Source of the DNA: Sulfurospirillum sp. UCH001
GTDB taxonomy: Bacteria; Campylobacterota; Campylobacteria; Campylobacterales; Sulfurospirillaceae
DNA length: 64,000 bases
Direction: 5' to 3'
Assembly: GCF_001548035.1 (NCBI RefSeq)
Contig: NZ_AP014723.1
Span: 1,054,001-1,118,000 of the forward strand
Below are positions 2,484-31,783 of the stretch, one piece after another. The stretch's first letter is position 1; the number at the start of each line of letters is the position of its first letter. A program made the position numbers and the translations under genes. Under the pieces are notes generated by a model. That model worked only from the letters and a program-made list of their open reading frames with translations. It did not search any database and was not told the origin of the DNA.

Positions 2484-4946
2484 ATGATTAAATTCTTGCA
2501 AACCCTTTTTATCGCCCGATCCAACGATTCAGCTGACAAGTACCTCTCTAAGCATTCAGGGGCTATAAAAGTCATGACATTGGCTTCACTCCTCTCTTCA
2601 GAAGAATTAACACGATCAGTAGCTATGGATGCATTTATAGCAAAGATAATACTTCATCATGCTATTCAAACCCTGAAATTAGATCACTTTGATTATCTAT
2701 GTAATGCCGAAGCATCAGTCAATGAAGTATATACACATATCCTTGCGTGTAAACGAAACTGTATAGGGCTTGATGTCTTTGAGTATGAGACACAAAAACA
2801 TATTGAGTTACAACAGATCTGGAATGCATACGAAGAACTAAAAAACAGTTTTGGTCTTAAAGATAGTGCAGATGTTATGATGGAAGCGGTTGAGGCACTG
2901 CAACATACAAAGTATTTTACGCAATTTTCAAGCGTGGTGTTAGATGTATTTGAGGAGGAGGGGATTCGATTTTACGCTAATACCTTAGAACACAAAGCAC
3001 TTGAGATCATTAGGGCTATATCTCATGTGGAAGTTTTAACACCACAAATATCGGATTTAAAATCTATCGAAACATATACCTCTCAGCAGTCATATTTTGA
3101 TGAGGCACTGTTTGCTATCAAAGCTGCTCGAAAATTGATGGTAGATGGGGTGCAGGATGGTGACATCGCTATTGTCACTGGCAATCTGTTACGCTATCGT
3201 CGTATCTTAGAAAGTAATGCTTTTGAATATGGTATGAAGCTTCGCTTTAGCTCAGGAATACCGATACTACAAAGTTCTCTTTTTGCCAAATTTTTAAAGG
3301 CTAAGACCTTTGACAAATTTAAAGAAGACGTATCATTCAGAATTACCCAAGATTATCAGCGAGGGTTGATTGATGAGAGTAAATTAGAAGAGGTTAAACT
3401 TCATTTTACTCAAATTAAATCACTACATTACCGAACATTAACCATCATTGAAACAGCTAAAAAACTGTTTGATGAGGTACTTGAATATAAAAAAATCATC
3501 CTCTCTCTTGCAGAAGAGGCTTTTATTCCACCGTTGAAAGATCAAGAAGGCATTTGGGTCAGTGAACCAAACCAAATACCAAATCACCGTTTTAGGCACA
3601 TCATTTTTATTGGAACCGATCTTTCGCAATTTCCTCCAAAGATGAGAAGTAATTTCTTAGCAACGCCAGAGCAAAGAGAGCGCTATCTTGGGGTAGATAA
3701 TGCATACCGCCTTAGTCAATACTACTTTTCTCAAATGCTTAAAAATAGTGAATCACTGCATGTATGCACTGCAATGCAGGAGGGTAAGAAGAAACTATTT
3801 ATCTCTCCGGTCATCACTAATCTTCCTCACAAATCTTTTACAGACTATGAGTGTGCTTCAGTGCGTGAAGTACTACATGCAAAGTGTCGTTATAAACAAG
3901 ATGAGTTATTTGAAACATATGTTGAAGCAGCATTATCTCCAGCACGTACTCTTTATGATGGTTTGAGTCAAGATTTTACGTATAAAAGTGGTGTACTATC
4001 AGCGTCGAGTTTAAATGAATATGCTAAATGTCCCCTTCGTTATCAGCTTACGTTTCACTACAAGGCTGAAGCCTTAGCCGTCGAAAGAGATGATGATGAG
4101 CTTGAAGCAAGCGATATTGGAACTATTTTTCATTCAATAGCAGAACAGTTTGCCCAGGATGTTAAAGCGAATACAATAGCATTAGGCGCATTACCAACTT
4201 ATAATATCAAAGAACATCTTCACGCAATAGCAACACGTAAACATCAAGAGTATATTCAACAAAAGATTATTGATGAGGGGAAAATACCGACAGTATTTCA
4301 TGAAATTGTTCTGCATGATTTGACGAAAGGGTTATTTGAAGAGCACCATGAGAAGGGCTTACTGGTACGTTTTTTAGAGTATGTGTATCAAAATGGTAGG
4401 CTTGAAGATTTTGAACAAAGTGAACATCGTTTTATGCTTGATAGTGATTTTTGTATTACAACAGAGAAAGACAAAGCGATTATTAAGGGCTTTATCGATC
4501 GAATTGATCGCAATCACACCCATCAAACCGTAACGATCATTGACTATAAAACGGGCAAATATGCTAAAGAAAAAGAGATGAAACTCATTGAAGGGATGAA
4601 TAACTATCAACAATTTCAACTGCCTCTTTATCTTCTTTATGCATCCCAAGCATACGATGATTACACTATAAATTCGCATCTTTTATCGATGCGTTGTGAA
4701 CAAGGAACGAAAGAGTATGCACACATTAGTACCTCTGCTGAGAATGGGCTTTGTTTTGATGAAGCATATGAACAAGGACTCAAAGAGAAAATATACTCAT
4801 TTAAACAAGCCATCGAGTCAGGTGAGTTTGCAATGACCCCATCAGAAGAGAATTGTAGTTATTGTCCATATGAAAAAATTTGTCACAAAGAGATACTTGT
4901 TCATAAAGTATTAGAAGATGCAATGAGTGGAGATGACAATGAGTAA
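2484..4946 (+). CDS. addB: AddB-like PD-(D/E)XK nuclease with Fe-S cluster
   Basis: An 820-residue protein. The C-terminal third is a RecB-type PD-(D/E)XK nuclease: GFIDRID followed by IIDYKTGKY near residues 675-695, then a QLPLYLLYA helix. Four cysteines match the AddB 4Fe-4S staple: one in YAKCP near residue 515 and a C-x2-C-x5-C set near 790-799. The N-terminal half is the inactivated helicase-like part typical of AddB. AddAB resects double-strand ends for recombination and also degrades foreign linear DNA. The length is close to that of Campylobacterota AddB. The start has GGAG a few nt upstream. The gene overlaps the AddA gene by 8 nt. Whether this is the housekeeping AddAB or a second, defence-associated copy cannot be decided from the window. 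Confidence 0.8.
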   Translation: MIKFLQTLFIARSNDSADKYLSKHSGAIKVMTLASLLSSEELTRSVAMDAFIAKIILHHAIQTLKLDHFDYLCNAEASVNEVYTHILACKRNCIGLDVFEYETQKHIELQQIWNAYEELKNSFGLKDSADVMMEAVEALQHTKYFTQFSSVVLDVFEEEGIRFYANTLEHKALEIIRAISHVEVLTPQISDLKSIETYTSQQSYFDEALFAIKAARKLMVDGVQDGDIAIVTGNLLRYRRILESNAFEYGMKLRFSSGIPILQSSLFAKFLKAKTFDKFKEDVSFRITQDYQRGLIDESKLEEVKLHFTQIKSLHYRTLTIIETAKKLFDEVLEYKKIILSLAEEAFIPPLKDQEGIWVSEPNQIPNHRFRHIIFIGTDLSQFPPKMRSNFLATPEQRERYLGVDNAYRLSQYYFSQMLKNSESLHVCTAMQEGKKKLFISPVITNLPHKSFTDYECASVREVLHAKCRYKQDELFETYVEAALSPARTLYDGLSQDFTYKSGVLSASSLNEYAKCPLRYQLTFHYKAEALAVERDDDELEASDIGTIFHSIAEQFAQDVKANTIALGALPTYNIKEHLHAIATRKHQEYIQQKIIDEGKIPTVFHEIVLHDLTKGLFEEHHEKGLLVRFLEYVYQNGRLEDFEQSEHRFMLDSDFCITTEKDKAIIKGFIDRIDRNHTHQTVTIIDYKTGKYAKEKEMKLIEGMNNYQQFQLPLYLLYASQAYDDYTINSHLLSMRCEQGTKEYAHISTSAENGLCFDEAYEQGLKEKIYSFKQAIESGEFAMTPSEENCSYCPYEKICHKEILVHKVLEDAMSGDDNE

Positions 4947-7900
4947 TAAATTTGATATCTTTAACCATGTCTCCATCAGTGCCGGTGCAGGATCAGGAAA
5001 AACGTATACACTTTCAAGACGCTACATTAACATCCTCGTAGGATTCAATCTTTTTTTTGAAGGAACGGATAATAGGCCTTCATTTGAAACCTTAAAACCT
5101 TCGCGTCCAAGTGAGATTGTTACGATCACCTATACCGAAGCGGGTGCGTTGGAGATGAAAAGCCGTATATACGCCTTAATTCAAAATGTCATTGCTTATA
5201 CGGATGGGAATCTTGATGCTACGCATAATGATTATGCATCAATTAACGATGCTTTTAAAGCACTACCCCAAGATCCATGTTGGGTCAATCACATACGTCT
5301 TGTTCTTATAAACTCTCTTTCTGAGCTGTCATCTGCTACGATCAGCACGATTCACTCGTATTGTCTTGATTTAATTGAACAGTATGGTGATTATCTCAAA
5401 CTGGATGCAAAACCAAAAATTGTCAAAGACGATGAAAAAATGGTTGCTTATACGGATGCTTATCGCAATGTACTCAATAGCGAAGATCAAATCGTAAAAG
5501 AGATCAATCAAACCATCTCTTTATATCAATTATCTAAAATTGCTCAAAAATACAGCTTTAATGCACAATTTCGAGAAGCCTTTAATGCATATGCGATTCT
5601 ATGTGATGATAACAATTTTTCCTTGAGAGATACGTGGATGGCAACGCTACTCCCCGCGTATCAAGAGCGTATTGAAAAGGGGTTATATGCATTACAAGCA
5701 CTCAAAGAGCAAGATTCGTTAAAGAGTGATTTATGTGATGCCATACGCGTGAATTTAGAAAGTGTTTTAAAAGGTAAGGGTGAATGGATAGAATATACTG
5801 GGCAATTAAGAAAAAATAAGCAGATCGATTTTGAGACATTTGAAGCGGTTAAAGCATTGCGAGACAGTGTCAATAATTTGCGTTGGAGTATAGTCGATCC
5901 TGCTGCAGAGCAGCATTATTTACATACGCTAAAAGCGATTCACGCATTGTTTATAAAAGTATATGAGCGATTCCGAAAAATTCTTAGCGAGGATGGTTAT
6001 ACAGATTTTGAGACAATTTTACAACAAGCAAATACTTTATTAGAGCAAGATATTACAATTCTTACACGTTATTTTATGGTGGATGAATTTCAAGATACGA
6101 ATGGTTATCAATGGGGAATTATCACAAAAGCAGCTTCGAAAAATGATGCAAATCTATTTATCGTCGGAGATGAAAAACAATCAATCTTTTCATTCCAAGG
6201 TGCTGATGTTTCCGTTTTTGCTAAAGCGAGCCAATCTCTAGGTCTAGCAACACCAATTTCAATGGAAGTAAATCGTCGAAGTGATCGTGCTATCATCTCT
6301 CTTGTCAATGATGTTTTTGCATCTGCGATGATCGAAAAAGGAATGACTACTTTCAAACGAATTGAATGCTGTAATGATGAGAAGCTGAATCGCAGTATTG
6401 ATCTATTTAACCACTATGCCCAATTTACACCTATCAAAGTAGATTTTGAAGCTAAATATGATCCCCTTAGTGTACCAGCAAATAAGGAAGAGGGCACTTT
6501 GTCAATATTAGCGACACCTGTTGATCATACATTGCCTGATTGTGCAGAAGAATGCTCAGAAAGTATTCAAGAGCTCCGCCACATTGCTTCATTTATTAAT
6601 TCCATTATTCAAGGAGAGCATCCTCAGTATAGTGATGTTATGAACGCGTACAAACGTGGCGAAAAAGCAATAGCCATTTTATTTGATTCACGCAAATTTA
6701 TGTTGCCTTTGAAACAGTGTTTATTAGAACTTGGCATCCGAGCAAAAGTCAATGATAGTGGAAATTTCTTTGCTACCAAAGAGGTTAATGATATATTTAT
6801 TGTGCTCAAGCTGCTTTCACTGATGGATACATTGCGTTGGGAAAAGATTTCTGCGAAAATAAAATATGTTATTGTTGGAGCCTTACGATCAAATATCCTG
6901 CGATACAATGCTGATCAAATCGAATCTTTTATGCGTACTCAAACATTACCGGCCATACTTCAAAAGTGGCAACAACTCTCATTATATTGTCCCATTTATG
7001 AATTGATAGAACGTGTGGTTAAAGAGAGTCAATTACTTCATTTTTATCGTCATATTGCTGGGTATGAACAGCGAGAAGCAAATATTGAGCAACTTATGGA
7101 CATGGCGTATGACTACTCTTTAAACAAAGGATCAGATCTTAAGGGCTTTGTAGATGAACTCGAAACATTCATTTATAATGAGGATGTGAGCGAAGATGAA
7201 GCGTTTGTGATAGAAGAGGGCGTTGGCTCTGTTGAAATTTTAACGATGCATGGCTCTAAAGGCTTAGAATGGCCAATGGTCGTTGTTGGTAGTATGAATC
7301 GCTCTTTTTTAGGGATGTCTAAACAAGAAACACTCGTCTATGATCGATTTGATGGTAAAGAGATGATAGGGTTTAAAGTTGGTAATTATGAACCTTTAGT
7401 CTATAAATTTATCAAAGAACGTATTAACCAAAAGCATATTGCGGAACGTAAAAGGCTTTTGTATGTTGCTATGACACGTCCAGAGCATCATTTAGTACTT
7501 TCAACAGCAATCAATTACTATGGGAAAGAGCCTAAACTATGCCGTAACTGTGGAGATAATAACTACTTTACACTTGTCAATAATGCATTAGGTATTAACT
7601 ATACAGAACTGTATGAAGGAACTCTCCAAGAGGTGAATAACATAAAGGTGTTTTATCCATCGCCATGGAGAGGTAATAATGTTATTTTACCAACGATTGA
7701 AGCCATTGATCCTATTTTAATTCAAAGACAATCCTTTACACCTGTTTCAGTCATTCGGCCAAGTGGAAAAATAGACCCACTTGCGTTCTTAAAAGATGAT
7801 GTTTTCGATACTGCAAGTGCAGGTACAATTGTTCATAAAATTCTTGAAAAACATTGGCACGAGCTGGAAAGAGATGATATCTTCGAAAATTATTTTACCG

Positions 7901-8262
7901 CATATGCTGTACCTGAGAGCTTCAAACACAACATCATTCAAATGTCTCGCAATTTTTTAAGCACAACGCATTATAAAAAATTAAAAGAGGGTGCTGAAGC
8001 GTATTTTGAATATGATTTTTCAATAAACCATAAAGGGCAGCAAATCCAAGGTTGTATCGATCTCTTTTACTTTGACAAAGAAGCAAATGGATGGGTCATC
8101 GTAGATTTTAAAACGACATTGCTCAAAGGGAAAGATCCACAAACCGTTATACAAGAAAATGAATATGATGTACAGTTAGAACTTTATCACGTTTTTATTT
8201 CCACCGTAGTTGGTGCTGAAAATGTCATTTCAAAAGATATATGTTGGTTGAACTTTTCTTAA
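4939..8262 (+). CDS. addA: AddA-like UvrD/RecB helicase-nuclease
   Basis: An SF1A helicase of about 1107 residues. Motifs in order: Walker A AGAGSGKT near residue 18, motif II VDEFQDT near 380, motif III GDEKQSIFSFQGA near 410, motif V TMHGSKGLEW near 768 and motif VI LLYVAMTRP near 840. A C-terminal RecB-like nuclease ends with IVDFKTT near 1053 and a QLELYHVF helix. This is the layout of AddA, which with AddB forms a helicase-nuclease that processes broken DNA ends. I chose the ATG at 4939 because GGAG lies 6 nt upstream; GTG 4927 and ATG 4933 are alternatives. The start lies inside the end of addB, implying coupled translation. It is longer than most Campylobacterota AddA proteins that I know, which may point to an accessory copy. 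Confidence 0.82.
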   Translation: MSNKFDIFNHVSISAGAGSGKTYTLSRRYINILVGFNLFFEGTDNRPSFETLKPSRPSEIVTITYTEAGALEMKSRIYALIQNVIAYTDGNLDATHNDYASINDAFKALPQDPCWVNHIRLVLINSLSELSSATISTIHSYCLDLIEQYGDYLKLDAKPKIVKDDEKMVAYTDAYRNVLNSEDQIVKEINQTISLYQLSKIAQKYSFNAQFREAFNAYAILCDDNNFSLRDTWMATLLPAYQERIEKGLYALQALKEQDSLKSDLCDAIRVNLESVLKGKGEWIEYTGQLRKNKQIDFETFEAVKALRDSVNNLRWSIVDPAAEQHYLHTLKAIHALFIKVYERFRKILSEDGYTDFETILQQANTLLEQDITILTRYFMVDEFQDTNGYQWGIITKAASKNDANLFIVGDEKQSIFSFQGADVSVFAKASQSLGLATPISMEVNRRSDRAIISLVNDVFASAMIEKGMTTFKRIECCNDEKLNRSIDLFNHYAQFTPIKVDFEAKYDPLSVPANKEEGTLSILATPVDHTLPDCAEECSESIQELRHIASFINSIIQGEHPQYSDVMNAYKRGEKAIAILFDSRKFMLPLKQCLLELGIRAKVNDSGNFFATKEVNDIFIVLKLLSLMDTLRWEKISAKIKYVIVGALRSNILRYNADQIESFMRTQTLPAILQKWQQLSLYCPIYELIERVVKESQLLHFYRHIAGYEQREANIEQLMDMAYDYSLNKGSDLKGFVDELETFIYNEDVSEDEAFVIEEGVGSVEILTMHGSKGLEWPMVVVGSMNRSFLGMSKQETLVYDRFDGKEMIGFKVGNYEPLVYKFIKERINQKHIAERKRLLYVAMTRPEHHLVLSTAINYYGKEPKLCRNCGDNNYFTLVNNALGINYTELYEGTLQEVNNIKVFYPSPWRGNNVILPTIEAIDPILIQRQSFTPVSVIRPSGKIDPLAFLKDDVFDTASAGTIVHKILEKHWHELERDDIFENYFTAYAVPESFKHNIIQMSRNFLSTTHYKKLKEGAEAYFEYDFSINHKGQQIQGCIDLFYFDKEANGWVIVDFKTTLLKGKDPQTVIQENEYDVQLELYHVFISTVVGAENVISKDICWLNFS

Positions 8263-11805: not shown

Positions 11806-12675
11806 CTAGGCACTCATATCGTTTTGTAACAGTTTATTTTCAAAATCCACTGGTGACAAATAACCATTACTAGAGTGCAACCTCTGTCTATTATAAAACA
11901 CTTCGATATATTCAAATATAGCTTGATTTGCTTGGCTCCTTGTTTCAAATTTCATATGGTGCGTAAGTTCTGTTTTTAAAGAATGAAAGAAACTCTCGGC
12001 AACAGCATTATCATAACAATTTCCCTTAGCACTCATACTTTGGACGATGCCATATTCTTTAAGCATGGCTTTATGGGCATCGGAAGCATATTGACTGCCA
12101 CGATCGGTATGCCAGATGACACCCTGCGGAGGATTGCGTTTTTTAAGCGCCATAAAAAGCGCATCGTTGACAAGTGTTGCACTCATATGTGCATCCATAG
12201 ACCAACCAATAACTCTTCTTGAATATAAATCAATGACGACAGCTAAATAGAGCCATCCTTCTTGTGTCGGGATATAGGTTATATCACCTACATACATTTG
12301 ATTAGGAACTGAGGCATAAAAATCTTGTTGAATTCGATTAGGGGCAATAGCATAGGTATGATTGGAGTTGGTGGTAAGAACTCTAAAACGACGTTTATTG
12401 CGACAACTTAGCCCAAGTTTTTTCATAATCCTTGCAATACGTCTACGAGAGACGATCAATCCATAGAGTTGTTCAAGTCTCTTTTTCATTCGGCGTGTGC
12501 CGTACGTTTGATAAGTGCTAAGAAAAATATCTTGAATCATGGTGTTTAATACCATATCTTCTTGCCTCTCTATTCGAAGCCATCGATAATAACAGTTACG
12601 AGAAACCTCTAATAAATGGCACATGTGCGCAATATTGAATTCATTACGATGCTCTTTAATCCAGGCGTACTTCAA
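11806..12675 (-). CDS. IS3-family transposase OrfB (DDE integrase)
   Basis: A 289-residue catalytic subunit. It has an N-terminal HTH_21-like region (YGTRRMKKRLEQLYG) and an rve integrase core. The catalytic triad is visible: D in VGDITYIP, D in HTDRGSQYAS, and E in NAVAESFFHSLK. The visible frame starts with a TTG that overlaps the orfA stop. The physiological product is probably the OrfAB fusion made by -1 frameshifting on the A-AAA-AAG heptamer at 12711-12705 (minus strand), after which the frame continues directly into OrfB. Confidence 0.93.
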   Translation of the reverse strand: MKYAWIKEHRNEFNIAHMCHLLEVSRNCYYRWLRIERQEDMVLNTMIQDIFLSTYQTYGTRRMKKRLEQLYGLIVSRRRIARIMKKLGLSCRNKRRFRVLTTNSNHTYAIAPNRIQQDFYASVPNQMYVGDITYIPTQEGWLYLAVVIDLYSRRVIGWSMDAHMSATLVNDALFMALKKRNPPQGVIWHTDRGSQYASDAHKAMLKEYGIVQSMSAKGNCYDNAVAESFFHSLKTELTHHMKFETRSQANQAIFEYIEVFYNRQRLHSSNGYLSPVDFENKLLQNDMSA

Positions 12676-12986
12676 TGAGCTTCTTTCGCGAAGAACGCCG
12701 CTGCCTTTTTTAAAATATCTCTCTCTATCTTCAACTTTGAGTTCTCTTTACGCAGTCGTCGATTCTCCTCTTCAAGACTTTCTTTGGGTGAACTATTGGT
12801 AGTTCGGTTCGGTAATTCAGAAATTAAGTGATGCTTTTTCCTATAGTCTCGTAGCCACGCATACAGTGTTTTATCACTCATCCCTAAATCTTGTGCTATT
12901 TGATAGGCTGATTTTTCACTATTGAGGGCTAATTGTATTGTTGAGTTTTTAAACTCTTGAGTATATTTCTGAGCTTTGTTGACCAT
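12672..12986 (-). CDS. IS3-family transposase OrfA
   Basis: A 104-residue protein. The N-terminal helix-turn-helix (SAYQIAQDLGMSDKTLYAWLRDY) is of the transposase_8 type, followed by a leucine-zipper-like coiled coil (LEEENRRLRKENSKLKIERDILKKA). The slippery heptamer A-AAA-AAG lies in frame near the end of the coil. A -1 shift there yields the OrfAB transposase, and without the shift OrfA ends after KEAH. Confidence 0.93.
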   Translation of the reverse strand: MVNKAQKYTQEFKNSTIQLALNSEKSAYQIAQDLGMSDKTLYAWLRDYRKKHHLISELPNRTTNSSPKESLEEENRRLRKENSKLKIERDILKKAAAFFAKEAH

Positions 12987-14705: not shown

Positions 14706-15332
14706 ATGATGTTAAAAGATGTCATTAAATTAACTACAAGAATTTATAATGAAATACTCAATGAGTCTCATGTCCCATTATCCGCTATCTCTTTGTACGA
14801 TTCTTATCGTAAGCTAGGAGAAGTGATAGAAAATACACATTTAGTTGCCAACCATTATTTAGCATTACGTTTTGATGAAGGTTTTTTGCAAAACTCCTCG
14901 TTTGGAGAGCCTATTGATAAATGGCACTATTTTTTCAATCAAGACTTAGAACGTCTTAATAGTGCTGTTAAAAGTCATTTAATTCAATTGCAAGGGTTAG
15001 GCATTCAAGACCCGCAAAATCCAGATGATAGAATTTTCATTCTTGATACGCTTTTTTATGTTAAAAGTTATTATGGTTTTGTTCGAAATCATTACAATGT
15101 AGGGTATTTAAACCGCAAAGGAACACACATTAGTTGCTATGTTTTAATTACCAAGTATGATCATCAAACAGTGTATGTTTCAGAAGGTAAAAACATTGAT
15201 GTATCTACTTATGAAAAGCGTTGTGAACTCAAGGCATCATTGTTAGTCAAACTTGAGAAATTGCGCAGTTTACATCAAAGATTAGGTTTATATCTTAAAG
15301 AACATTACACGATCAATGATCTTATTCGGTAA
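14706..15332 (+). CDS. Island paralogous family A, member 1
   Basis: A 208-residue, mostly helical protein that I do not recognise from any named family. It is clearly homologous to the protein at 28554-29234. Shared blocks are a D-x-[IL]-KLT start, YDSYRKL/YDLYRAL near residue 27, HYLALRFDEGFL near 48, KW-x(6)-DLERLNSAVKSHLIQLQ near 75, and the near-identical STYEKRCELK near 170 followed by a terminal INDLI. The start is ATG 14706 or 14709; AAAAGG is spaced better for 14709. It follows the 14311 gene by 26 nt. Confidence 0.72.
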   Translation: MMLKDVIKLTTRIYNEILNESHVPLSAISLYDSYRKLGEVIENTHLVANHYLALRFDEGFLQNSSFGEPIDKWHYFFNQDLERLNSAVKSHLIQLQGLGIQDPQNPDDRIFILDTLFYVKSYYGFVRNHYNVGYLNRKGTHISCYVLITKYDHQTVYVSEGKNIDVSTYEKRCELKASLLVKLEKLRSLHQRLGLYLKEHYTINDLIR

Positions 15333-15446: not shown

Positions 15447-15935
15447 ATGATAATTAAACCACTGAGTTTTGATAGGCTAGAAGAATCAAATACTCTTAGA
15501 AATAGGGTATTTAAGTATCTTTCATTAGAGGAAAAACAAACACTAAATGCCAGTCTAGATGCTCAAAACTATTCTTCTATTTTGGCTAAATTAGCGTTAA
15601 TGTCATTAGAATATTGGGTTGCAATCTATGAAAATAAGGTTGTCGGACTTATTGGTTTATATGAAGAGACATCAGACCATGAAGATTCCATTTGGCTTGG
15701 ATGGTATTGTGTAGATGAAAAATATCGAGGTCTAACCATTGGTAAAAAACTGATTAGTTTTGCGATTGAAGAAGCCAAGAAAAAAAATAAATATTTTTTG
15801 AAACTCTATACAACCCTTCATGACGAATATGCGGTAGCAAGGGACTTATATGAAAAATTAGGTTTTTTCGTCACATTCCATAAAGGAAAAACACTTCATT
15901 ATCATTTAAACTTAGGAAATAAAGATGCTCGCTAA
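15447..15935 (+). CDS. GNAT-family N-acetyltransferase
   Basis: A 162-residue GNAT protein. Strand WVAIYENKVVGLIGLYEE is followed by motif A WYCVDEKYRGLTIGKKLI near residues 85-107, the acetyl-CoA pyrophosphate loop, and then the C-terminal ARDLYEKLGFFVTFHKG. It transfers an acyl group from CoA to an unknown amine. It lies 114 nt downstream of the previous gene, and that gap has no palindrome. AAAGGA lies upstream of the ATG. Its end overlaps the start of the ADP-ribosylglycohydrolase fusion by 11 nt, which couples the two. Confidence 0.85.
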   Translation: MIIKPLSFDRLEESNTLRNRVFKYLSLEEKQTLNASLDAQNYSSILAKLALMSLEYWVAIYENKVVGLIGLYEETSDHEDSIWLGWYCVDEKYRGLTIGKKLISFAIEEAKKKNKYFLKLYTTLHDEYAVARDLYEKLGFFVTFHKGKTLHYHLNLGNKDAR

Positions 15936-17226
15936 TACGTTTCGCACACTTTTAGGGCTTAGCATCGGTGACGCCTATGGCATACATTTTGAGTTTATGA
16001 GCCAAGAAGATATTGCAGATAATTATCTTGAGAAACCTCAAACAAGCCTTGGCGGTGGGCCATTTCAATTTTTACCCGGTGATTTTAGCGATGATACGGA
16101 AATGGCTCTTTTAACCCTTTACTCTTTAATGCAAAACGGGTGTGTGGATACCCAGCATATCAAAGCACTTTATACGTTATGGTCGTATCATGCTAAAGAT
16201 ATAGGTGTTCAGACACAAAGAGCATTGCAGCAAGGGATTATCGATCCTAAAGGCGAGGGTAATGGTGCCTTGATGAGGATTTTACCAAGCATTGTCTATA
16301 TGCATGATGTATTACATTGGGATAACGAAAAGATTAAAACCTCTGTTCATGCAATTAGTAGTATCACGCATGATTCTCTCAATATTCATCGCATTAATAA
16401 TTTCTTTGTTGACCTTATATTGAGAAAAAATATTCTACAGCATGCTCATGCTTCCCTTATAGTAGATTTGTTACGAGCCACTGGTAATAGCGGTTGGGTT
16501 ATCAATACTGCACGCATTGTTTGGTTTAGATTGATGGAAAGGCATCTTAGCTTATTGGATGGGATGTGGAAGATAATATCTTATGGCGGTGATACCGATA
16601 CCGCATGTGCCATTTACGGTGCTATCAAAGCGTATAAAGACCCTGAATCACTTCAATCTCTTCAACTGGATGTTCTTTTAAATCGCAAAAGTCAAAAGGT
16701 CTTGGAAACATTTTTACAAACACGTCTACATTACTACCAGCCAGACAATCAATTGTTTCCTACATTATTTGCAGGGCAATATCCTGGTTCAAAAAATGCG
16801 GCTTTGCATGCTATAAAACTCTATGACCTAGAAATGTTGAATATTGACTGTATAGTTTCCTTGATGGAAGTTTCAGAGAGTAAACGGTTTACTCCTTATC
16901 AGCAAACACTCATGCAACAAAATCCTACAATAGAATTTTTTAGCTATCCAATAGTTGATATGGGTATTCCAACACCAGAACAATTGAATATGATAATTCA
17001 ACATATTCAAACATTGCTTATATCCAAAAAACGTGTTTATATTCATTGTTGGGGTGGGCATGGTAGAACAGGCGTGATTGTGGGAGCGTTATTAATCTAT
17101 AATGGGTATACTCCTCAAAATGCATTAGTAAAAATCAAAGAAGAACGAATGAACACTCTCTTTGGGGAAGAACCTTCTCCGCAGACGGAAGAGCAAGTAA
17201 ATTTTATCTATAAGATGTTACAATGA
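15925..17226 (+). CDS. ADP-ribosylglycohydrolase fused to tyrosine/dual-specificity phosphatase
   Basis: A 433-residue two-domain enzyme. Residues 1-250 form a DraG/ARH-type ADP-ribosylglycohydrolase: LSIGDAYG, the DDTEM metal-binding motif near 57, and GGDTDT near 222 supplying the second metal site. Residues 270-433 form a cysteine phosphatase domain with the P-loop HCWGGHGRTG (CX5R) near 375 and a Gln-rich end (SPQTEEQVNFI). Such enzymes could remove ADP-ribose and phosphate from a modified substrate. The phosphatase part might act on phospho-proteins or phospho-sugars. Both active sites look intact. The gene overlaps the upstream acetyltransferase gene, suggesting a modification-handling unit. 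The substrate is unknown. Confidence 0.88.
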   Translation: MLANTFRTLLGLSIGDAYGIHFEFMSQEDIADNYLEKPQTSLGGGPFQFLPGDFSDDTEMALLTLYSLMQNGCVDTQHIKALYTLWSYHAKDIGVQTQRALQQGIIDPKGEGNGALMRILPSIVYMHDVLHWDNEKIKTSVHAISSITHDSLNIHRINNFFVDLILRKNILQHAHASLIVDLLRATGNSGWVINTARIVWFRLMERHLSLLDGMWKIISYGGDTDTACAIYGAIKAYKDPESLQSLQLDVLLNRKSQKVLETFLQTRLHYYQPDNQLFPTLFAGQYPGSKNAALHAIKLYDLEMLNIDCIVSLMEVSESKRFTPYQQTLMQQNPTIEFFSYPIVDMGIPTPEQLNMIIQHIQTLLISKKRVYIHCWGGHGRTGVIVGALLIYNGYTPQNALVKIKEERMNTLFGEEPSPQTEEQVNFIYKMLQ

Positions 17227-20461: not shown

Positions 20462-21034
20462 ATGTTGACACGTAGAGATTTTTTTAAGGTACTAACGGTT
20501 TGCTCATTACCTGATGAAAAGAGTACCGCCTCAAATAATATACTAGAATATGTTGATTGTGAAATATCATTTCCCTTTGCCAAAGAAGATGATATCTATT
20601 CACTTCAGATTTATCAGCATACTATGACCATGATTCAAAGCATGGTAGAGAACCCAAAAGAAACAGTACTGATACAGATGGGAACTCATGATAATACATT
20701 GTATGATCATCGAATTGATGAGTTATTGTGCCAATTAAACATATGCGGTATTTACGATTATCTTACTTATCCAAAAATTAAATTTTTTTATAAAGAACAA
20801 GAAATAAAAACGCCAAATATCTCTCTTGTATGTTCCTTTGAAAACCCTATTTTTTATTTTACTCGGAATCAACAATTATCTATCAAACCGAGTCTTGATA
20901 AACTCTTTACACATTATCTTAACAATCCATGTTATCCTTTAGATGAATTAATCATTCATATGACTGTGGATTTGCACTATTATGATATTGCAAGACCCAA
21001 TAAAGTATTTGATATCAGATCTTTAGCACAATAA
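20462..21034 (+). CDS. Island paralogous family B, member 1 (TRRDFFK start)
   Basis: A 190-residue protein that I do not recognise. It begins MLTRRDFFKVLTVC, a textbook twin-arginine (Tat) consensus, but the hydrophobic part is only about eight residues, so export is doubtful. It is homologous to the protein at 31235-31783. Both have R-R-x-F-F-K, a Cys soon after, NNILE/KNILE, then an I-x-F/L-PF strand, a D-x-T-M/L-Y region (DNTLYDHRIDELLC), YPKIKFF/YPTIKLF and a PN/PS-[IM]-SL strand. It lies 98 nt after the AAA gene with no palindrome in the gap, so it is probably in the same operon. Confidence 0.72.
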   Translation: MLTRRDFFKVLTVCSLPDEKSTASNNILEYVDCEISFPFAKEDDIYSLQIYQHTMTMIQSMVENPKETVLIQMGTHDNTLYDHRIDELLCQLNICGIYDYLTYPKIKFFYKEQEIKTPNISLVCSFENPIFYFTRNQQLSIKPSLDKLFTHYLNNPCYPLDELIIHMTVDLHYYDIARPNKVFDIRSLAQ

Positions 21035-25960: not shown

Positions 25961-26167
25961 ATGAAATACGCTTATTCACTTTGTTTAGTATTAGGAGCCT
26001 ATCTTCTCTATAACTCTGGTATGGATAGTAATGCTCTTAGGATGTTATACCTTTTTTTAATCTTTGCATCACTTAGTGTGCTCTTTGAATATGTAAGTGC
26101 GTATGCTTTTTTTAGAGCATGGCTGATCTGTCAACACTTTATGATACACAGAAATAAATATGTCTAG
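25961..26167 (+). CDS. Small membrane protein with IS-altered C-terminus
   Basis: The original gene encodes two hydrophobic segments (YSLCLVLGAYLLYNSG and MLYLFLIFASLSVLFEYV). The IS inserted at 26124 after FFRAW. Removing the IS and one GGC copy restores the end LHRWF and a stop at 27430-27432. The frame now continues 14 codons into the IS end, so only the last five residues are replaced and the protein may still be made. Downstream cassette genes are separated from their promoter. Confidence 0.6.
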   Translation: MKYAYSLCLVLGAYLLYNSGMDSNALRMLYLFLIFASLSVLFEYVSAYAFFRAWLICQHFMIHRNKYV

Positions 26168-27033
26168 GCACTCATATCGTTTTGTAACAGTTTATTTTCA
26201 AAATCCACTGGTGACAAATAACCATTACTAGAGTGCAACCTCTGTCTATTATAAAACACTTCGATATATTCAAATATAGCTTGATTTGCTTGGCTCCTTG
26301 TTTCAAATTTCATATGGTGCGTAAGTTCTGTTTTTAAAGAATGAAAGAAACTCTCGGCAACAGCATTATCATAACAATTTCCCTTAGCACTCATACTTTG
26401 GACGATGCCATATTCTTTAAGCATGGCTTTATGGGCATCGGAAGCATATTGACTGCCACGATCGGTATGCCAGATGACACCCTGCGGAGGATTGCGTTTT
26501 TTAAGCGCCATAAAAAGCGCATCGTTGACAAGTGTTGCACTCATATGTGCATCCATAGACCAACCAATAACTCTTCTTGAATATAAATCAATGACGACAG
26601 CTAAATAGAGCCATCCTTCTTGTGTCGGGATATAGGTTATATCACCTACATACATTTGATTAGGAACTGAGGCATAAAAATCTTGTTGAATTCGATTAGG
26701 GGCAATAGCATAGGTATGATTGGAGTTGGTGGTAAGAACTCTAAAACGACGTTTATTGCGACAACTTAGCCCAAGTTTTTTCATAATCCTTGCAATACGT
26801 CTACGAGAGACGATCAATCCATAGAGTTGTTCAAGTCTCTTTTTCATTCGGCGTGTGCCGTACGTTTGATAAGTGCTAAGAAAAATATCTTGAATCATGG
26901 TGTTTAATACCATATCTTCTTGCCTCTCTATTCGAAGCCATCGATAATAACAGTTACGAGAAACCTCTAATAAATGGCACATGTGCGCAATATTGAATTC
27001 ATTACGATGCTCTTTAATCCAGGCGTACTTCAA
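26164..27033 (-). CDS. IS3-family transposase OrfB, copy 2
   Basis: Identical at the protein level to the OrfB of copy 1, with the same DDE residues (GDITYIP, HTDRGSQ, NAVAESF). It is produced as an OrfAB fusion by -1 frameshifting at the A-AAA-AAG site at 27069-27063 (minus strand). Confidence 0.93.
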   Translation of the reverse strand: MKYAWIKEHRNEFNIAHMCHLLEVSRNCYYRWLRIERQEDMVLNTMIQDIFLSTYQTYGTRRMKKRLEQLYGLIVSRRRIARIMKKLGLSCRNKRRFRVLTTNSNHTYAIAPNRIQQDFYASVPNQMYVGDITYIPTQEGWLYLAVVIDLYSRRVIGWSMDAHMSATLVNDALFMALKKRNPPQGVIWHTDRGSQYASDAHKAMLKEYGIVQSMSAKGNCYDNAVAESFFHSLKTELTHHMKFETRSQANQAIFEYIEVFYNRQRLHSSNGYLSPVDFENKLLQNDMSA

Positions 27034-27344
27034 TGAGCTTCTTTCGCGAAGAACGCCGCTGCCTTTTTTAAAATATCTCTCTCTATCTTCAACTTTGAGT
27101 TCTCTTTACGCAGTCGTCGATTCTCCTCTTCAAGACTTTCTTTGGGTGAACTATTGGTAGTTCGGTTCGGTAATTCAGAAATTAAGTGATGCTTTTTCCT
27201 ATAGTCTCGTAGCCACGCATACAGTGTTTTATCACTCATCCCTAAATCTTGTGCTATTTGATAGGCTGATTTTTCACTATTGAGGGCTAATTGTATTGTT
27301 GAGTTTTTAAACTCTTGAGTATATTTCTGAGCTTTGTTGACCAT
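27030..27344 (-). CDS. IS3-family transposase OrfA, copy 2
   Basis: Identical to the OrfA of copy 1: a helix-turn-helix that binds the terminal repeats, and a coiled coil for multimerisation. It includes the slippery heptamer near its end. Confidence 0.93.
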   Translation of the reverse strand: MVNKAQKYTQEFKNSTIQLALNSEKSAYQIAQDLGMSDKTLYAWLRDYRKKHHLISELPNRTTNSSPKESLEEENRRLRKENSKLKIERDILKKAAAFFAKEAH

Positions 27345-28537: not shown

Positions 28538-28568
28538 AAGAGAGATATTTTATTCAGATATTTCTCTT
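28538..28568. terminator. Bidirectional hairpin between convergent genes
   Basis: AAGAGA-G-ATAT pairs with ATAT-T-TCTCTT (one G-T pair) around a 9-nt loop. It overlaps the end of the minus-strand gene at 28554. Moderately convincing. Confidence 0.45.
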
Positions 28569-29234
28569 TGCTACTCTCAGTTCCTGCACTTCTAAAACAA
28601 GATCATTAATCGAAACATTAGCAATTAAATAGGCTTTTACTTCTTCTTCAATCACGATCAATTGCTTCAAAACAGCTAACCCTTCTTTTTTTACATCTAA
28701 TCGTTTTTCATAGGTCGAAAGATCAATCAAAATAGTCTCAATTGGATTATTTTTAAATTCCTGAAAGTTAATAACTGTTTTTTGCAATGTGCAGGAATTC
28801 TCTAGTATCAATCCACAAGAATAATGAGCTAGAAGAGCACCATAAAAGTTTTTATGATTAATATACTCATCCAGAGGTCCTTTTTGCATTACCTGAAATT
28901 CTAAATTATCATCTTCATCATCGTAACTTAGATATTGCAATTGAAATAAATAGGATTGAACTTTAGAATTAGCTCGTGTTAAATCTCTATTGAGCACGTC
29001 TCTCCATTTTTCTTCTGCTGAATTATACGACGTTGTTTGGACTAAAAATTCCTCTTCAAATGTTAATGTTAAATAATGCTCCAATACGACATGAAACTCA
29101 CAATTCATAGCATGTAGAGCACGATAAAGATCATAATAAAGTATTTTGCGAATTGATAGTCTTGAATTTTTAATCTCATCAAACGTCATTTGGGTCAGCT
29201 TCAAAATATCATCAAATATACCTTGAGTCTTCAT
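28554..29234 (-). CDS. Island paralogous family A, member 2
   Basis: A 226-residue helical protein, homologous over its whole length to the 14706-15332 product. Shared blocks are ILKLTQMTFDEI, YYDLYRAL, HYLTLTFEEEFL, KWRDVLNRDLTRANSKVQSYLFQLQYL, DLSTYEKRLDVKK and INDLV. It has a 15-residue C-terminal extension. AAGGAG lies 8 nt before the ATG. Its promoter is the minus arm of palindrome site 7 with a perfect TATAAT, at 13 rather than 12 nt. No known family is recognised. Confidence 0.72.
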   Translation of the reverse strand: MKTQGIFDDILKLTQMTFDEIKNSRLSIRKILYYDLYRALHAMNCEFHVVLEHYLTLTFEEEFLVQTTSYNSAEEKWRDVLNRDLTRANSKVQSYLFQLQYLSYDDEDDNLEFQVMQKGPLDEYINHKNFYGALLAHYSCGLILENSCTLQKTVINFQEFKNNPIETILIDLSTYEKRLDVKKEGLAVLKQLIVIEEEVKAYLIANVSINDLVLEVQELRVAKRNI

Positions 29235-31234: not shown

Positions 31235-31783
31235 ATGCGAAGAAGAAGTTTCTTTAAAAATCTTGCAATTTTTCCACTTGCATGCCTAGGTGAAAACAAA
31301 AAAGACAACGAAAAAAATATTTTAGAAAATGCTACCATCCAAATCTTGCTACCTTTTTCATTAAACTCTTCCCAGAAAAACAAAATAGGTTTATTCGCTA
31401 TAGATAAGCCAATGCGTGAACTTAGATCAAGATATTTAAACAGTATTTTAGAATCACTGAGACAATGGGAGAATCAAGGGATTATGCTTCATTTTCATGA
31501 AGATGAATCTACTATGTATAATGTTGCAGTAGATAAAATGCTTTGCAATGAAAAACTAGCCTCTCAGTTTTTATACTATCCTACTATAAAGTTATTTGAT
31601 GATCAAGAAGAGTTGTTTTTGCCATCAATGAGTCTTTTTACCACAATGAAATACCCATCGTTTACTAGCACTGATTCAATGATTATAGTTAATGGTGATT
31701 TAGAATATTTAGATATGGATAAAATTGGAAAAATAGTGAATTTAAAAAAATATAAACAACCAAAAGAACCAAATTTTCCTTAA
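31235..31783 (+). CDS. Island paralogous family B, member 2 (RRSFFK start)
   Basis: A 182-residue protein, homologous to the 20462-21034 product. It begins MRRRSFFKNLAIFPLACLG, again a twin-arginine-like R-R-x-F-F-K followed by a short hydrophobic run and a Cys. Shared later blocks are KNILE, ILLPF, an ESTMYNVAVDKMLC region, YPTIKLF and LPSMSLF. Whether the N-terminus directs export, membrane anchoring or neither is open. AAGGAG lies 6 nt before the ATG. Its promoter is the plus arm of palindrome site 8. Confidence 0.72.
   Translation: MRRRSFFKNLAIFPLACLGENKKDNEKNILENATIQILLPFSLNSSQKNKIGLFAIDKPMRELRSRYLNSILESLRQWENQGIMLHFHEDESTMYNVAVDKMLCNEKLASQFLYYPTIKLFDDQEELFLPSMSLFTTMKYPSFTSTDSMIIVNGDLEYLDMDKIGKIVNLKKYKQPKEPNFP

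Follow-up and report, generated by a model that had tools for sequence, protein, structure and literature searches.

What does a single polypeptide made of an ADP-ribosylhydrolase (ARH) of the DraG type and a cysteine phosphatase act upon, and does the acetyltransferase whose gene overlaps its own take part in the reaction? These questions are raised by a locus of Sulfurospirillum sp. UCH001, located in the stretch of 64,000 nucleotides that was analysed (hereafter the window), which comes from a complete chromosome of 2.6 Mb. The features of the locus are as follows.

15447..15935, plus strand: ORF of a GNAT-family N-acetyltransferase, 162 aa (PF00583, 58.2 bits; PF13508, 55.6 bits)
15914..15917, plus strand: AGGA, Shine-Dalgarno-like, inside the GNAT gene and 7 nt ahead of the ATG of the fusion gene (from the sequence)
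15925..17226, plus strand: ARH-DSP fusion gene, 433 aa (Pfam; model with pLDDT 90.1 and pTM 0.79)
15925..16704, plus strand: ADP-ribosylhydrolase domain, DraG type, residues 1-260 (PF03747, 119.6 bits; 2woc)
15991..15993, plus strand: codon of Glu23, equivalent to the flap glutamate of DraG, Glu28 (alignments)
16090..16098, plus strand: Asp56-Asp57-Thr58, first half of the dimetal site (both Asp invariant in 34 relatives)
16198..16200, plus strand: Asp92, aligned with the DraG-specific catalytic Asp97 (alignment; Asp in 32 of 34 relatives)
16585..16602, plus strand: Gly-Gly-Asp-Thr-Asp-Thr, residues 221-226, second half of the dimetal site (sequence and conservation)
16720..17223, plus strand: DSP-type (PTP-SAK-like) phosphatase domain, residues 266-433 (PF22784, 54 bits; 1fpz, 5z5a)
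16957..16959, plus strand: Asp345, candidate general acid, in a PIVD motif (Asp in 50 of 50 relatives)
17047..17067, plus strand: CX5R phosphate-binding loop, Cys375 to Arg381, CWGGHGR (Arg in 50 and Cys in 48 of 50 relatives)

Domains and active sites of the fusion protein

The curated cut-offs of Pfam were exceeded by all three domains of the locus (GNAT, ARH and DSP). In the fusion ORF, PF03747 was recognised at residues 8-234 with 119.6 bits against a curated cut-off of 26.2, and PF22784 (PTP-SAK) at residues 303-408 with 54 bits. The motifs SDDTEM (residues 55-60), GGDTDT (221-226) and HCWGGHGRTG (374-383) are present, and the dimetal ligands and flap glutamate of ARH enzymes are found as D56, D57, T58, D223, D225, T226 and E23. 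Nearly all of 34 ARH relatives keep D56, D57, D223, D225, T226, E23, T148 and H149, the flap position being Glu in 33 of them, and nearly all of 50 DSP relatives keep C375, R381 and D345, that is, the CX5R loop and upstream Asp of a DSP-type cysteine phosphatase. By analogy with the PTP/DSP family, Asp345 is a candidate general acid. Judged from these residues, both active sites are intact.

The structure of the fusion protein was predicted with AlphaFold2 from 80 aligned sequences, with a mean pLDDT of 90.1 and a pTM of 0.79, the weakest part being the linker at about residues 250-270. In comparisons with VIA-align, modelled residues 1-259 matched Rhodospirillum rubrum DraG (2woc) with Z 28.8 and an rmsd of 2.7 over 251 residues, as expected of the all-helical ARH fold, and modelled residues 266-433 matched KAP (1fpz, Z 21.3) and Tk-PTP (5z5a, Z 20.4), consistent with a PTP/DSP fold. 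With full-length domains, a pLDDT of 90 and Z scores of 28.8 and 21.3, the domain assignment is far beyond chance. The original prediction, that one polypeptide combines an intact DraG/ARH site with an intact CX5R loop, was thus borne out by the positions of the motifs, Pfam, the model and conservation; the collapse of one of the sites, which by its own terms would have refuted it, was not seen in the predicted structure.

The phosphatase domain shares with PTP-SAK, Tk-PTP and human KAP the fold (Z about 20-21), the CX5R loop and the upstream conserved Asp, but it is part of a fusion and belongs to a subgroup with the motif HCWGGxGRTG. The ARH domain shares with DraG the fold, the dimetal residues and a further Asp: in phmmer alignments, residue 92 lies opposite the Asp of 2woc that is Asn in the D97N entry 2woe. 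This Asp97 is DraG-specific, having no counterpart in ARH1 or ARH3, and activity depends critically on it (PMC7050489); the marker of the DraG subclass, an extra conserved Asp, is therefore present as D92. The fusion protein differs from DraG in its additional C-terminal phosphatase, its shorter ARH domain and its location in an island where DraT was not detected.

That the protein regulates nitrogenase, as does DraG by taking ADP-ribose off the Fe protein, is very improbable. Its closest structure is R. rubrum DraG, the DraG-specific Asp is present, and nif-type genes (names read from translations) lie about 25-45 kb from the fusion, in the part of the window with 40% G+C. However, the fusion gene lies in an accessory island with 32% G+C that occupies bases 1 to 38.7 kb, and it is absent from the other genomes of the genus that were searched. 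Besides, DraG itself has no phosphatase domain, and DraT gave no match in the genome, in a search that gave no match in control genomes either.

The overlapping acetyltransferase gene

The GNAT ORF (15447-15935) and the fusion ORF (15925-17226) share 11 bp (ATGCTCGCTAA), in agreement with the overlap originally reported, and because of it the two genes are probably translated together. Additionally, the acetyltransferase had been proposed to share its substrate with the other two activities, so that GNAT, ARH and phosphatase would act in turn on one molecule. Homologues of this GNAT, 40-48% identical, were found in seven other Campylobacterota genomes, in none of them beside an ARH gene in the stretches examined. 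In one of these genomes (G052) the GNAT gene is followed by a protein of no assigned family, a macrodomain protein and a WYL regulator, the macrodomain lying two genes from the GNAT, and in another (G388) a Sir2 gene is found two genes downstream. These two neighbourhoods and the overlap, with its probable joint translation, speak for a cascade of three enzymes. On the other hand, the remaining homologues have no ADP-ribose gene nearby in the stretches examined, their contexts being unrelated or, for several, their contigs short, and none of the 30 other ARH-phosphatase pairs (13 fused and 17 adjacent) was found to have a homologous GNAT as a neighbour. A list of Pfam families around the coupled loci covered 25 of 105, so that rare GNAT neighbours of another subfamily could escape it. 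The G+C content also differs, being 0.39 in the coding part of ARH and 0.35 in that of DSP, against 0.315 in GNAT and 0.32 in the island; since its two parts are richer in G+C, the fusion gene may have a history different from that of its neighbours. We consider the cascade improbable.

The search for the domain fusion and its neighbours had a divided result: ARH-DSP pairs recur (30 of the 80 best loci), but no recurring linkage with GNAT was found. A conserved partnership with GNAT was supported neither at the 30 coupled loci nor in the seven further GNAT genomes, and no match to the GNAT was obtained on plasmids. The overlap suggests joint translation in this genome, not a conserved partnership, and the GNAT beside the fusion is probably a chance companion. 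A related proposal, that the three enzymes make up a unit devoted to a substrate bearing two or three modifications (e.g. an ADP-ribosylated, phosphorylated nucleic-acid end), and that Campylobacterota islands keep the GNAT while exchanging the ADP-ribose step (ARH-DSP, macrodomain or Sir2), is more doubtful still.

In a further genome of the Campylobacterota (G058, L099:342-3824), an ARH gene is accompanied by an agmatine-deiminase-like gene, an uncharacterised protein and a gene resembling the WYL regulator of G052. The uncharacterised protein is 37% identical to that encoded at L097:7581-8297, beside the GNAT and macrodomain genes of G052, and a similar protein is encoded at L113:280-1128.

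Genomic island and genome context

The island carries genes for a GmrSD-type protein, an AddAB-like pair (PD-(D/E)XK and UvrD domains), an IetA-like AAA ATPase, a DUF2779 protein and a phage-type integrase, as well as many small orphan genes. Neither the GNAT nor the fusion matched a known defence family in PADLOC. Among the island ORFs scanned with Pfam no ART or sirtuin was found, several small ORFs being unmatched, so that a divergent ART is possible. Macrodomain, KptA and DarT were not detected in the genome, each of these searches being positive in control genomes, so that the genome showed no source of its own for these modifications.

The possibility that the fusion is an immunity protein against a specific ADP-ribosylating toxin of competitors, like the ARH immunity of ART-ARH effector pairs, was also considered. 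The many small orphan genes agree with it, as do structural matches to the ART toxin/immunity entries 6dre (Z 24.9) and 8za7 (Z 25.3) and the name of a close DSP family in Pfam, Tc-R-P, which comes from polymorphic toxin systems. However, 6dre and 8za7 are matched by all ARH enzymes and DraG scores higher, and neither a toxin gene nor a secretion locus was recognised next to the fusion. We regard such a role as unlikely, although it is the most probable of the rival readings.

Somewhat less probable is a role in house-cleaning of NAD-derived small molecules, such as ADP-ribose 1''-phosphate or O-acetyl-ADP-ribose, with no part in conflict. Such metabolites would be fitting substrates for a phosphatase combined with an enzyme that acts at C1'' of ADP-ribose, and one KptA gene was found near an ARH-DSP pair in another genome; against this, KptA was undetected in the genome studied here, and the fusion gene is in a mobile island and was not found in the 23 same-genus genomes searched.

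The AddA-like gene gave no strong match in the 40 relatives searched and is 67% identical to a gene of G388, a more distant genome of the same order, at about 8 kb from the GNAT homologue. The whole AddAB-like pair (2484-8262) is 60-67% identical to that at L103:10194-15948 of G388, and the pair of the island is apparently a mobile AddAB. Two copies of an IS3-like insertion sequence, each with two ORFs and with translations identical between the copies, flank the region of the fusion (11806-12986 and 26164-27344); the copies and the genes that they enclose could make up a composite element. The island also contains two paralogous pairs of orphan genes with no Pfam match, 14706-15332 with 28554-29234 (35% identity) and 20462-21034 with 31235-31783 (22% identity).

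Recurrence and proposed function of the ARH-phosphatase pair

A DSP profile was run against 84,980 species genomes and gave 402 relatives, of which the best 80 loci were read. In these 80 loci the DSP gene was fused to ARH in 13 cases, adjacent to an ARH ORF in 17 and at the same locus in 2; the other 48 had no ARH in the available DNA, some stretches being short, which suggests that the DSP family also works alone. Fusions with ARH first were found in Planctomycetota, Actinomycetota and Thermodesulfobacteriota, and those with DSP first in Chloroflexota, Planctomycetota, Gemmatimonadota and Thermodesulfobacteriota. In other Campylobacterota (60 relatives and 397 genomes of the phylum searched) the fusion was absent and separate ARH or DSP matches only were obtained; in plasmids, phages and viral contigs no match covered 80% of the query.

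The ARH-DSP fusions of planctomycetes, actinobacteria and desulfobacteria (L020, L022, L051, L053 and L081) have the same domain order and invariant residues as the fusion of the window but are 28-29% identical to it. In the ARH tree, the ARH domain of the window grouped with ARH-only proteins of two other genomes of the same order (support 100/98), apart from all ARH domains of other ARH-DSP pairs. A single origin of all ARH-first fusions was rejected (AU p = 2e-5, at a cost of 86 log units), also when the longest other branches were left out, as was a single origin with subsets of the planctomycete, actinobacterial and desulfobacterial fusions (AU p = 5e-4 and 0.0015). In the DSP tree the position of the window was unreliable. 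Because the branches of the window are long, an independent origin of its fusion is regarded as likely rather than proven. Since it comes from another ARH lineage, the same pair has probably been joined more than once, and such repeated joining argues for a joint function. The repeated and apparently independent joining of ARH and DSP, in several phyla and with either domain first, speaks strongly for one reaction sequence of de-ADP-ribosylation and dephosphorylation.

The architecture and its interpretation in terms of conflict are already published. In the ARG-centred systems of Iyer et al. 2022 (PMC9503650, section 3.8), ARG is coupled with a phosphatase in a little over 55% of the neighbourhoods, either within a single polypeptide or through an adjacent gene, and this phosphatase belongs most often to the rhodanese-phosphatase superfamily; actinobacteria, planctomycetes and proteobacteria are named as hosts, and the system is predicted to counter viral ADP-ribosylation. 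The idea of toxin or phage-defence chemistry put forward in the original prediction agrees with that proposal and with the context of the island. The fusion described here resembles those systems in having ARH and a DSP/rhodanese-type phosphatase in a single ORF, no ART found beside it and a variable, conflict-type neighbourhood. In contrast, no Nudix, WYL regulator or ARPP was found among the island ORFs scanned; a Nudix or WYL regulator occurs in over 42% of ARG-centred systems and is thus not obligatory (PMC9503650). New here are the separate ARH lineage, shared with Campylobacterota ARH-only proteins, the apparently independent fusion and its being the only one among the 397 Campylobacterota genomes searched.

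We favour, at about even confidence, a bifunctional clean-up enzyme for foreign ADP-ribosylation encoded on a mobile conflict island. An ADP-ribosyltransferase of a phage or rival, presumably from outside the cell, would modify a macromolecule; the DraG-type dimetal domain would hydrolyse the C1'' bond of the ADP-ribosylated macromolecule, and the CX5R phosphatase could then strip a phosphate from the product. This phosphate may be exposed on the target, e.g. at a nucleic-acid end, or be carried by the released ADP-ribose derivative. RNA that carries ADP-ribose on a terminal phosphate is freed of it by macrodomains and by an ARH-like enzyme (PMC11833690), and a fusion acting in the same way would leave a phosphate for its own phosphatase. 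A clean-up enzyme is supported by the presence of both domains with intact sites, by their coupling, fused or adjacent, across many phyla, by the mobile island, and by the macrodomain, KptA and DarT undetected in the genome and the ART unseen among the island ORFs scanned; against it stand the Nudix and WYL regulator unseen in the scanned island ORFs, the G+C mismatch and the DSP relatives without ARH. Experimental work or measured activity for any ARH-DSP fusion was not found in the literature searched. With macrodomain, DarT and KptA undetected in its genome, this compact fusion of 433 residues lends itself to substrate discovery.

Two further observations concern other ARH-DSP pairs. In a member of the Acidimicrobiia, a SMODS-type nucleotidyltransferase (L048:3181-4227) is encoded two genes from an adjacent pair, which fits a conflict setting. 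Three Roseiflexaceae carry two DSP-ARH fusions in tandem (L017:3863-5335, L065:3805-5310 and L026:1-1467); the upstream copy has GMxGA in place of the ARH metal motif in all three, and its phosphatase loop reads HSWRGISR, with Ser in place of Cys, in two of the three, the downstream copy being intact. Since both sites of one copy decay together, the tandem fusions suggest a pair of catalytic and non-catalytic subunits.
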